From positions 1 through 50,123 of the forward strand of contig JAHRHE010000007.1 in assembly GCA_020027965.1 (NCBI GenBank): a stretch of DNA of 50,123 nucleotides, written 5' to 3'. The notes beneath the pieces are model-generated. The model was given only the letters and a program-made list of their open reading frames with translations, was not told where the DNA came from and ran no database searches. The translations under genes and the position numbers were made by a program. This document shows positions 4,102 to 7,149 of the stretch, piece after piece. The DNA comes from Nitrospirota bacterium. GTDB lineage: Bacteria > Nitrospirota > Nitrospiria > Nitrospirales > Nitrospiraceae. The first letter of the stretch is position 1. Each line of letters begins with the position of its first letter.

Positions 4102-4170
4102 GCAGGGCGTCTCCTGCTGTACCGAGCCGGGATCCTACGAGATAACCGGCCTTTCCATAAGTTCAGCCGA

Positions 4171-4464
4171 ATGAACAAAGTCAGAGTTCCTCTCGCAGCC
4201 ACGCTGTTTATCATTGGTGGAGTCTTCGCAGCATTGGAAATCGTCAGCGTGTATTCTCTGCTCACAGGAGAGCCGGTGACATTCATTTCACACGCTGAAA
4301 TTTCCGACGACGTGGTCATCGAGCATGGCGTTGGCCTTCAAGTGAGCGGCCCGATCGGCCACCTGTTGGTCCTGGCCATCATCGCGTGCTCGATGACCGC
4401 AGCCCTTCTTGTTCTACGAACCAACCGCGCGGAACGCCAGACGGACAGCGCAGAAGCTCCGTAA
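4171..4464 (+). CDS. Small two-helix membrane protein, unknown function
   Basis: A 97-residue protein with two predicted membrane helices (about residues 8-30 and 61-82), separated by a short acidic periplasmic-type loop (HAEISDDVVIEHG), and with a charged C-terminal tail. I do not recognise a family. It follows truA by 69 bp on the same strand. Codon use looks like that of its neighbours, so I consider it a real gene. Confidence 0.6.
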   Translation: MNKVRVPLAATLFIIGGVFAALEIVSVYSLLTGEPVTFISHAEISDDVVIEHGVGLQVSGPIGHLLVLAIIACSMTAALLVLRTNRAERQTDSAEAP

Positions 4465-4523
4465 CCGCCGTTCCGCCGCCTCCCCCGGCCTCCCCCCATT
4501 AACGGAATCCACTGAAAACTAAC

Positions 4524-4645
4524 GGGATTCCGGTCAACTTTACAGATGCCAATTACATGCTACATTGACACTATGGCGAAGGTAAGTAATGGGATCCAGG
4601 GCAACTTTACAGATACTAACTACAGGTTACAGTGACGCCATGAAG
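4524..4645. repeat. Two-copy direct repeat (67-bp period), likely operator/promoter of the RHH operon
   Basis: Copy 1 (from 4524) and copy 2 (from 4591) both begin GGGAT and share the exact core CAACTTTACAGAT, followed by conserved TACA...TACA...TGAC...ATG. About four bases in five match over 55 bases. Copy 2 runs straight into the start codon of the ribbon-helix-helix gene at 4640. Copy 1 ends with an ATG that opens no long frame and contains TTGACA (4565-4570). A degenerate third half-copy (AACGGAATCC) precedes at 4501. Spaced TACA units suit an RHH autoregulator site; this is an inference. Confidence 0.6.
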
Positions 4646-4834
4646 ATGGTGACGTTGCGCTTACCCGATACGCTGCATGCCGAACTCAAGGAACTTTCAG
4701 AACAAGAAAACCGCTCCCTCCATGGGGAGATCGTGTATTGCCTGAAACGAGCGGTCGCATCAGAAAAGCAAACCTCACTCAACAACAAGGAGTTAAACGA
4801 TGCTGAAGGACAACGAAGTCAAACGAATCGTTGA
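4640..4834 (+). CDS. Ribbon-helix-helix (Arc/CopG-like) DNA-binding protein
   Basis: A protein of about 64 residues starting MKMVTLRLPDTLHAELKEL. This is the beta-strand of an Arc/MetJ-type ribbon-helix-helix fold followed by two helices (QENRSLHGEIVYCLKRAV), with the typical RSLxGEI motif of Arc-family regulators. The frame is open back to 4589, but that part translates repeat DNA, so I chose the ATG at 4640, where the second direct repeat ends. The gene overlaps the next one by 35 bases. RHH proteins usually repress their own operon. As an antitoxin it would need a toxin partner, and none of the three downstream proteins looks like one. Confidence 0.75.
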   Translation: MKMVTLRLPDTLHAELKELSEQENRSLHGEIVYCLKRAVASEKQTSLNNKELNDAEGQRSQTNR

Positions 4835-5117
4835 GGCTATCACCGAGTACAAGGAGCTGGTCCAGCAGTCCAGCGACATGCGCGACCAGCTGGAATCCCT
4901 CCAGAAGCGCTGGAATGCGCTGAGGCAGGAGCGAGACCAACTCCGCTCCGGTCTCGATATCATTCACCAGGCCCTCTCGCAGCTGAAAGTGGACTACCAA
5001 ACAGTGATGAAGAACATGACCGATCTCTCCTCAACGGAAGATTCGGTCTTGGACAACGTGAAGTTCCTCCTCGATGAGCTGACCTCCCTGCTCAAGAAAC
5101 ACGAAGTCGCGGCCTAA
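4800..5117 (+). CDS. Small coiled-coil protein of the VWA operon
   Basis: A 105-residue, wholly helical, soluble protein with no Cys and no membrane segment. Heptad-like leucines and charged residues run from about residue 10 to 65 (for example MRDQLESLQKRWNALRQERD), with a second short helix near the C-terminus (DNVKFLLDELTSLLKK). The start ATG at 4800 follows AAGGAG with 7-base spacing, inside the 3' end of the RHH gene, so the two are probably translationally coupled. I do not recognise a family. Its neighbours suggest a cytoplasmic partner of the next gene product, whose own termini are also coiled-coil. Confidence 0.75.
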   Translation: MLKDNEVKRIVEAITEYKELVQQSSDMRDQLESLQKRWNALRQERDQLRSGLDIIHQALSQLKVDYQTVMKNMTDLSSTEDSVLDNVKFLLDELTSLLKKHEVAA

Positions 5118-5145
5118 CGCCGCACCGGAGGCGCAAGGAAGATCC

Positions 5146-6162
5146 ATGTTTAAACACACGGCCGTTCACTTCACGGATGAGAGCCGGATCCAGGCTGAAG
5201 GGCAGAAAGATGGGGAGAAAAATATCCCGCAAATGGGATCGTATGTCTCTGCCCAGTTTGAGCAGGCGCTGATTGCGAATGGAGAACAACAGGTTCAGCA
5301 GATCTACGAGAAGGCATCACAGTTTATCGCCAAGCTCCAACCTATCTTCCGAGCCTGCCAGGAGCAGTTGGAGGAGCTGAATGTCCGGCTCAAGCCCATC
5401 TCAGAACTGTATGAGGCCAGGAAAAAGGAATTGGGCCGCGATGTCGCGATCCCGTTTCCCTCCGTCTATCATGTGTTGCTAATCCTATTTCTGGGCATCG
5501 GCGAATTTCCCTTGAACACGGTCGTCTTCCGCTTGTTTGGAGAAGCGGAATACCTGACCTATGTCATGTCTTCCACTCTCGCCGTCACCATCCCTCTTCT
5601 CGGGCTGTTCATCGGCCTCAATCTGAGGCATTCGATGCCGCGGAACGCGGGCAACATCCTGATCGGGCTGCTGACCCCGGCCGCAGTCGGGGCGGCCCTT
5701 TTTTCGATCAGCGTACTACGGAATACATATATCTTCTCTCAGTCCTCCGCGACCAATCCGGTGTCGGCCAACCAGGACAGCTTAGCCTACGCGTTGTTCG
5801 CCCTCAACCTCCTCGTGTTCTTTGGTGCCTTGGTGTCTTCTTTCTTCGCTCACGACCCGGACGAACGGCTAGACAGCGCCCATTCCTCCCTCTTGTTCCT
5901 GGATCGCAAGAGAAACGCCGTTCGAGAACGCCTCTTCAAGATCGGCACCCAACTGAACGGGGAGATCAAGAAGACCAAGAGCCAGATCGACCAAGTCCGT
6001 GCCCTCACGAACGAGCGCGTGGCGCTGTATCGTCAGATCAACATGCGGTTCCGCAGCCTGTTGCCACCGCCCACCTTTAGAAAACCTCCTGAGTTCCCCG
6101 AATTGAAATGGTGGCCGGAGGTGTCTCTCAACGGAGACATGGAGCCTCGTGATGGTGCCTGA
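5146..6162 (+). CDS. Four-helix membrane protein with coiled-coil flanks, unknown function
   Basis: A 338-residue protein. Residues 1-100 are hydrophilic and helical (coiled coil around 40-95). Four membrane helices follow, at about 107-130, 142-165, 168-192 and 210-235. A second long helical, charged region (about 240-305) and a Pro/Trp-rich tail (PPPTFRKPPEFPELKWWPE) end it. The start has AAGGAAG 5 bases upstream. It lies 28 bases after the coiled-coil gene and overlaps the lipoprotein gene by 11-14 bases. No enzymatic motif is seen. The shape, membrane core with cytoplasmic coiled coils, suggests a scaffold or channel-like subunit. I do not recognise a named family. Confidence 0.8.
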   Translation: MFKHTAVHFTDESRIQAEGQKDGEKNIPQMGSYVSAQFEQALIANGEQQVQQIYEKASQFIAKLQPIFRACQEQLEELNVRLKPISELYEARKKELGRDVAIPFPSVYHVLLILFLGIGEFPLNTVVFRLFGEAEYLTYVMSSTLAVTIPLLGLFIGLNLRHSMPRNAGNILIGLLTPAAVGAALFSISVLRNTYIFSQSSATNPVSANQDSLAYALFALNLLVFFGALVSSFFAHDPDERLDSAHSSLLFLDRKRNAVRERLFKIGTQLNGEIKKTKSQIDQVRALTNERVALYRQINMRFRSLLPPPTFRKPPEFPELKWWPEVSLNGDMEPRDGA

Positions 6163-6964
6163 GTCTGCATGGCCACGCGGGATCACCCTCTGGATTCTTG
6201 TCCTCCTCGCAGCGTTGGTCCCGCTGACTTCGGGATGCTCCCCCTCTTCACAGGCCTCGACACCCCGTGGAACGGAGATCGTCGTCTTTGTCGACTTCTC
6301 CGACAGCACCAAAAAGGCCGACCGGGTATTGTATGAGCAGGCGGTCACCGGCCAGATTCTCCCTACGCTTTCAGCTGGAGACCGTCTCCTGATCGCGCCG
6401 ATCAACGACAAGACCCTCACTGAGTTCCATCCTCTTGTCGAGGCCACCTTACCTCCGAAGCCCGCCTTCAATGGGTGGCTGGACAACGTCTTGAAACATA
6501 ACAAGGAAGCGAAAGAGATCGACACCCAAGTGGCTCACCTCAGAGAGACGGTCAAGACTCAGGTGGCTGCCGTGTTTGCCCGACGGTACACCAGCGCATA
6601 CACGGACATCTTTAGTTCACTCCTCATCGCCAAGAAACTCTTCCACAATGAGCCGAGACATAAGGTCCTGGTCCTGCTATCTGACATGATCGAAGATTAT
6701 CCGCCGTATCGTTTCGAGAGAGTGGCCTGGAGTCCTGAGACCAACCAGAAACTTCTGTCCGAACTAGAGGCGAAAGGAATGATCCCGGATCTGTCCGGCG
6801 TGTGCGTCTACGTGTCAGGGGTTTCGGGGGGATCCGCCGAGCTTGCTCAAAACATCGGCTCTTTCTGGCAGGCGTACTTTCAGCGCACGAAGGCCGATAT
6901 GGATCCAAGCCGTTATGCCCATGTGCTCCTGCACTGGCCTCCATCCACGTCCTGCTCATTTTGA
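6152..6964 (+). CDS. Lipoprotein with von Willebrand factor A-like domain
   Basis: About 270 residues. A signal peptide ends in a lipobox-like LTSGC (Cys about residue 29), so the mature protein is probably lipid-anchored in the envelope. A VWA-type fold follows with what looks like a complete metal site: DFSDS in IVVFVDFSDST, a Thr-Asp in SAYTDIFSSL, and SD in VLVLLSDMIED. The order and spacing match MIDAS motifs. Two starts are possible: GTG 6149 or ATG 6152. GGAG at 6141-6144 favours 6152. It overlaps the end of the membrane-protein gene and ends the operon. Surface ligand binding is the usual role of such domains; the ligand is unknown. Confidence 0.8.
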   Translation: MVPESAWPRGITLWILVLLAALVPLTSGCSPSSQASTPRGTEIVVFVDFSDSTKKADRVLYEQAVTGQILPTLSAGDRLLIAPINDKTLTEFHPLVEATLPPKPAFNGWLDNVLKHNKEAKEIDTQVAHLRETVKTQVAAVFARRYTSAYTDIFSSLLIAKKLFHNEPRHKVLVLLSDMIEDYPPYRFERVAWSPETNQKLLSELEAKGMIPDLSGVCVYVSGVSGGSAELAQNIGSFWQAYFQRTKADMDPSRYAHVLLHWPPSTSCSF

Positions 6965-7149
6965 CCGCGTCCTCATTCTCCGCTCAACGCCGCCTTTCTC
7001 CAACTCACTGAGGCCTCCTCCACCCATAGTTCCTGCTTCGATAGTCTGGCCGAGTGTCGGGCCTGCTCAATTCAACCCTCACGCCTTGGACCGCTGTGGA
7101 AAGACGAATAGAAACAGCGTAGGATGCCGGGCTGGAGTAAGGAGGCGGG

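Follow-up and report, generated by a model that had tools for sequence, protein, structure and literature searches.

A compact operon encoding a ribbon-helix-helix protein (RHH), a coiled-coil protein (CC), a four-helix membrane protein (TM) and an exported VWA-domain protein (VWA) recurs as a unit in Nitrospirota, and by the family tree this operon, itself CRISPR-free, is linked to a membrane pair associated with CRISPR. The copy described here lies in a 50,123-nucleotide stretch (the window) of a Nitrospirota genome. Our preferred reading, with a probability of roughly 0.45, is that the operon represents a stand-alone, RHH-controlled branch of the CRISPR-linked membrane module, and may act as a membrane-level defence or stress effector. 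Four unnamed proteins gain a firm unit and a regulator with a visible operator. If the TM–VWA pair acts at the membrane, comparing the two branches would reveal how an ancillary CRISPR effector operates in the absence of Cas10 and would offer a test of control of an inner-membrane effector by an exported VWA domain.

Gene organization and the upstream control region

The four genes are packed on one strand in about 2.4 kb (Table 1) and, as the earlier note on this DNA had described, they overlap or nearly touch; all four ORFs were confirmed on the forward strand. RHH overlaps CC by 35 nt, 28 nt separate CC from TM, and TM overlaps VWA by 11–14 nt, with VWA starting at either GTG 6149 or ATG 6152. 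A longer RHH ORF from 4589 is possible, and conservation among homologues begins at MKMVTLRL. Upstream lies a 97-aa ORF that was not found beside truA in the loci of relatives; it falls within the inserted segment described below and is at most a candidate part of the unit. None of CC, TM and VWA reached a curated cut-off in Pfam, NCBIfam, PADLOC or PHROGs, or gained a convincing name there.

Table 1. Positions in the window of the operon, its control elements and the inserted segment
Feature	Coordinates	Strand	Basis
Segment between truA and cysE, missing at the same place in relatives	4102..7149	.	Empty sites
97-aa ORF with hydrophobic stretches	4171..4464	+	No Pfam or NCBIfam family above cut-off
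Upstream 67-bp copy	4517..4583	+	Repeat search, promoter scan
Promoter 1, in upstream copy	TTTACA 4539, 16 bp, TACATT ending 4566	+	Promoter scan
Dyad 1, in upstream copy	4557-4571		
Downstream 67-bp copy, running into RHH start codon	4584..4650	+	Repeat search, promoter scan
Promoter 2, in downstream copy	TTTACA 4606, 16 bp, TACAGT ending 4633	+	Promoter scan
Dyad 2, in downstream copy	4624-4638		
RHH: Arc/CopG-type ribbon-helix-helix protein, 64 aa, presumed autoregulator	ATG 4640..4834	+	PHROG, 13 loci
CC: cytoplasmic coiled-coil protein, 105 aa	4800..5117	+	Coiled-coil background matches only
TM: four-helix membrane protein, long coiled-coil helices at both ends	5146..6162	+	Hydropathy, AF2
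VWA: exported VWA-domain protein, complete MIDAS motif, lipobox-like LTSGC	6149..6964	+	AF2, fold match

The region from 4517 to 4650 is mostly non-coding and was found by repeat search to be a 67-bp tandem duplication whose copies are 76% identical. Both copies contain a promoter of the form TTTACA-16-TACANT, with a 15-bp dyad (pattern GTGNNACNGTNNCAC) lying over the -10 region. Promoter 2 ends a few bases ahead of the RHH start codon, which suggests that the RHH mRNA is probably leaderless or nearly leaderless. In most RHH loci the dyad is situated 15–16 bp before the RHH ATG; in L010 and L011 the distance is 44 bp, and two copies are present in each, as in the window. The dyad is imperfect in several loci, and alone it is not significant in the window, L050, L051 and L054. 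No such dyad was found upstream of the operons lacking RHH, and the full operator–promoter element occurs twice in the 3.6-Mb window genome, both copies being those described here. Because the dyad over the promoter is conserved and limited to RHH loci, and the full element is unique to this site in the genome, the role of RHH as a local autoregulator is well supported at the level of sequence. The RHH protein itself matches PHROGs at E 8e-9 and weaker, several of them annotated as Arc-like (E 2.5e-6 to 3e-5). The earlier suggestion of a DNA-binding repressor is strengthened by the conserved dyad, with matches to the Pfam RHH families and to NCBIfam remaining below the curated cut-offs.

Matches to CC in Pfam, NCBIfam and PADLOC are coiled-coil background, and those to Zorya, SMC and others were set aside as such. 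Hydropathy places four hydrophobic stretches of TM between two long helices, and in the AF2 model these helices (residues 35–96 and 240–305) have block-mean pLDDT values mostly of 85–93, with the membrane part poorly modelled and a value of 62 for the whole model. The coiled-coil ends are presumably cytoplasmic. Residues D22, G23, E120, N124, R192 and Y295 are invariant in 27 homologues; of these, E120, N124 and R192 fall within membrane helices or at their ends. A PDB profile search with TM returned coiled-coil background and other weak matches only, and a Foldseek search gave no match below E 0.001, a result of little weight from a weak model.

For VWA, the AF2 model (pLDDT 81) confirms a predicted Rossmann-like VWA fold, with VIA Z scores of 13–14 to integrin I domains and the VWA domain of CMG2 (for 1sht, Z 14.2 and rmsd 2.6 over 160 residues). 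The metal site had been described as apparently complete, and the conserved MIDAS residues bear this out. Counting from GTG 6149, they are D49-x-S51-x-S53, T152 and D179, kept in the family as D-x-[ST]-x-S, [ST] and D. Export signals were recognized by eye, as was the lipobox-like motif of the window protein. A lipobox-like cysteine is present in many VWA homologues and absent in L010 and L011, so that export is predicted to be conserved but lipidation is not; the lipid anchor proposed earlier may hold for the window protein but is not a constant of the family.

Recurrence of the gene order and insertion between truA and cysE

A scan of named genomes identified close relatives in Nitrospirae MAGs and, at 60–70% identity, also in five Rokubacteria MAGs, the latter assignment being open to binning error, with two of those contigs longer than 100 kb. 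The in-depth search covered Nitrospirota genomes, and a phylum-wide profile search added homologues from a second class (family f22) as well as more remote members. The order RHH–CC–TM–VWA occurs in 13 loci in two classes of Nitrospirota, and CC–TM–VWA without RHH occurs in 7 further loci (Rokubacteria MAGs, L047 and L064). TM is directly followed by VWA in 29 of the 30 loci examined, CC is found in 20, and RHH, located with an RHH profile run over the bases upstream of CC, is always the first gene of its 13 loci. Of 61 genomes, comprising 60 relatives and that of the window itself, four carry TM and the same four carry VWA, always side by side. The homologues are not scattered; the genes co-travel across two Nitrospirota classes and the Rokubacteria MAGs, in agreement with the earlier proposal of one functional unit. 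RHH is missing from the Rokubacteria versions and is not obligatory to the unit.

Divergence among close loci grows from CC to TM to VWA. Identities to the window proteins are 85%, 78% and 70%, respectively, for L009, and 79%, 73% and 52% for L010, and the fastest divergence of the exported VWA may be as expected of a part that faces a variable partner. CC shows 71–85% identity across Rokubacteria, L047 and the remaining Nitrospiria loci, and 24–28% in f22. Several f22 genomes of genus g71 have two TM copies (L045, L053 and second copies), and in L053 TM has no adjoining VWA. A small Arg-rich ORF of 78 aa follows VWA in f22 loci (L048, 7276–7542; L049, 6936–7172) and is absent from the window; it may be a lineage-specific fifth component.

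The spacing between truA and cysE is 3 kb in the window and about 30–175 bp, with no insert, in five relatives (L107, L110, L111, L118 and L124), in line with the earlier remark that such genes were not expected at this place. Because the site lacks the insert in these relatives, the operon is acquired cargo, and it moves between bacteria as such. The recurrence of the order in 13 loci and the five empty sites together make the four-gene unit more than a chance grouping. Most other CC-clade loci have different neighbouring genes; read by eye and unsystematically, these look metabolic, and no defence island was seen among them. No integrase or conjugation gene was noticed in the inserted segment. 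Homologues were absent from plasmid records (queried with the window TM and VWA and two sister VWA proteins), from phage records (queried with one sister VWA protein) and from viral contigs (scanned with TM, sister VWA and sister TM alignments). Elsewhere, the window's genome has another truA-like gene, which is diverged (G000:C178 6110–6580, L130).

Sister TM–VWA pairs and their CRISPR neighbours

The TM tree resolves two clades, with support of 1.00 on the side of loci having only the two genes and 0.89 on the CC side, and the two-gene clade is also set apart in the VWA tree (support 1.00). Six of the nine sister loci on which the CRISPR association rests are beside CRISPR genes, mostly of type III, including Cas10, RAMPs, CorA, CARF and Cas6-RT-Cas1. 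In one subclade (L058, L059, L060, L143 and L144; support 0.98) all five are CRISPR-linked. L058 has the order TM–VWA–bPH–Cas10–RAMPs with Cas6-RT-Cas1 on the same contig, and L059 has Cas10, Csx10- and Csx7-like RAMPs and a Cas_APE2256 (CARF-type) protein; the GGDD motif is kept in both Cas10 proteins. CRISPR arrays and Cas6-RT-Cas1 adjoin the pair in L060, where three Cas10 genes lie within 45 kb. L143 encodes bPH, CorA (PADLOC CorA, E 2.8e-116), Cas10, RAMPs and Cas6, and L144 encodes bPH and a CARF-HD protein (PADLOC, E 8e-30). In L145 the pair is ~3–4 kb from a Cas3''-like HD protein and Cas8c, and no CRISPR gene is in view in the other three sister loci (L057, L061 and L062). Type III genes are also present elsewhere in several sister-locus genomes, and some proximity of TM–VWA to CRISPR genes is therefore expected. 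Many weak Cas10-palm matches probably represent GGDEF proteins and were left out of account.

Neither Cas10 nor Cas1 was detected in the window's genome, so the CRISPR link is limited to the sister clade. The earlier note could match the set to no described defence system; this is true for the window, but it is incomplete in that the sister TM–VWA clade is CRISPR-linked.

The sister loci also differ in what accompanies the pair. A bPH_2 membrane protein is encoded downstream of VWA in L057, L058, L143 and L144, and perhaps replaces CC there. An XRE-type HTH gene follows VWA in L061, L062 and L145, and the pair therefore seems to recruit different regulators. At a further locus (L146), a VWA domain fused to membrane helices is encoded upstream of Cas10 and RAMPs, its membrane part not being alignable to TM. 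This region (G474:C81, 351–11506) also encodes a calcineurin-like phosphatase, two VWA proteins (one Pfam-confirmed) and a kinase-like protein, and the phosphatase, VWA, kinase-like and fused membrane–VWA genes precede Cas10/RAMPs as a larger vWA–CRISPR cassette.

Proposed function and relation to known systems

The simplest reading is of one family of membrane plus exported-VWA modules with two lives, one as a CRISPR accessory (mostly of type III) and one as a stand-alone operon. From association with the CRISPR-linked sisters we infer a membrane role in defence or envelope stress. RHH would bind the two dyads and hold expression low until a signal arrives. TM would lie in the inner membrane and extend its two coiled-coil ends into the cytoplasm for CC to bind, and VWA, outside the inner membrane, would bind TM or an envelope ligand via its metal site. 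If the CRISPR-linked sisters are a guide, TM would be the acting part – a membrane effector causing a permeability change or forming a channel, the latter a tentative idea given a TM model of low confidence – and would be held back or set off by VWA from outside and by CC from inside, with CC in place of the Cas10 signal. The four products may form one physical complex, which would either defend the cell at its membrane against mobile elements or protect it when the envelope is attacked. A narrower version, in which the TM–VWA pair uncoupled from Cas10 would form a stand-alone membrane immune device with its own RHH and coiled-coil partner and an exported VWA gating an inner-membrane effector, is somewhat doubtful.

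The same features could be read as an envelope-maintenance module, with VWA and TM sensing or repairing envelope damage rather than acting as a defence effector, and with type III loci carrying the sister pair to shield the host membrane from their own effectors (e.g. CorA). Export of VWA is consistent with this, as are the bPH_2 membrane proteins after VWA in several sister loci, the CorA-family protein beside the pair in L143, and the location of the CC clade outside defence islands as far as these were read; however, the patchy presence (4/61 genomes) and the empty sites are unlike core envelope genes, and we consider this explanation possible but on the unlikely side. The empty sites, which are clean, the differing neighbourhoods in most lineages and the 60–70% identity between Nitrospirota and Rokubacteria MAGs might instead reflect cargo serving a mobile element, e.g. 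by excluding competing elements at the cell surface, but this is improbable, as neither an integrase nor a conjugation gene was noticed in the segment and the searches of plasmid records, phage records and viral contigs gave no homologue.

Many type II toxin–antitoxin modules have a small overlapping regulator gene with a dyad over the promoter, and the small RHH gene, with its 35-nt overlap and dyad, resembles these. RHH and CC could then be a toxin–antitoxin-like pair, with TM and VWA as passengers or as the toxic part, but in 7 loci CC, TM and VWA are retained although RHH is missing, and no toxin fold or family was matched; we rejected this as the main explanation because of the persistence of the CC–TM–VWA core, and hold it to be very unlikely. 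Nothing beyond the lack of family names would favour four unrelated genes brought together by chance, an idea refuted by recurrence (the same order in 13 loci, and VWA beside TM in 29/30) and to which we give almost no credence.

The stand-alone, RHH-controlled membrane module that we prefer can be compared with several known systems. The TM3–TM4 and C-terminal helix portion of TM is similar in layout to SLATT 2TM effectors, in which a coiled coil comes after two TM helices; a single sister protein (TM of L060) matched NCBIfam SLATT_4 weakly (23 bits, cut-off 55), and searches of 11 genomes gave no SLATT match over cut-off and none at the window TM locus. The vWA-MoxR-VMAP ternary conflict systems (PMC7159879) share with the operon a VWA domain in a probable conflict setting, but the window VWA is exported, and no MoxR-type AAA+ ATPase or VMAP was found, either in the four operon proteins or in the 97-aa ORF.

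Type III CRISPR systems have membrane effectors including CorA, Cam1 and Csx23 (PMC11229360), and the sister-clade membrane protein is similarly encoded beside Cas10, once next to a CorA-family protein. Neighbouring cas10/RAMP genes, the mark of type III ancillary effectors, occur in the sister clade only and not in the window, where the operon is independent of Cas10. TM differs from these effectors in having no CARF or nucleotide-sensing domain that we found, and in being partnered with an exported VWA; the window proteins have no CARF or SAVED match in Pfam, NCBIfam or PADLOC, and TM and VWA no named effector domain. Control of an inner-membrane effector by an exported VWA domain was not found among the described type III effectors, and no description of the stand-alone RHH–CC version was found in the literature searched.

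The general kind is already known: Altae-Tran et al. (2023, PMC10910872) describe a variety of vWA systems, with genes for transmembrane proteins, kinases and phosphatases, adjacent to CRISPR loci. The sister TM–VWA pairs, and L146 with its VWA, phosphatase and Cas10, look like cases of the modules described there, and relative to these the window operon dispenses with CRISPR and adds RHH and CC.
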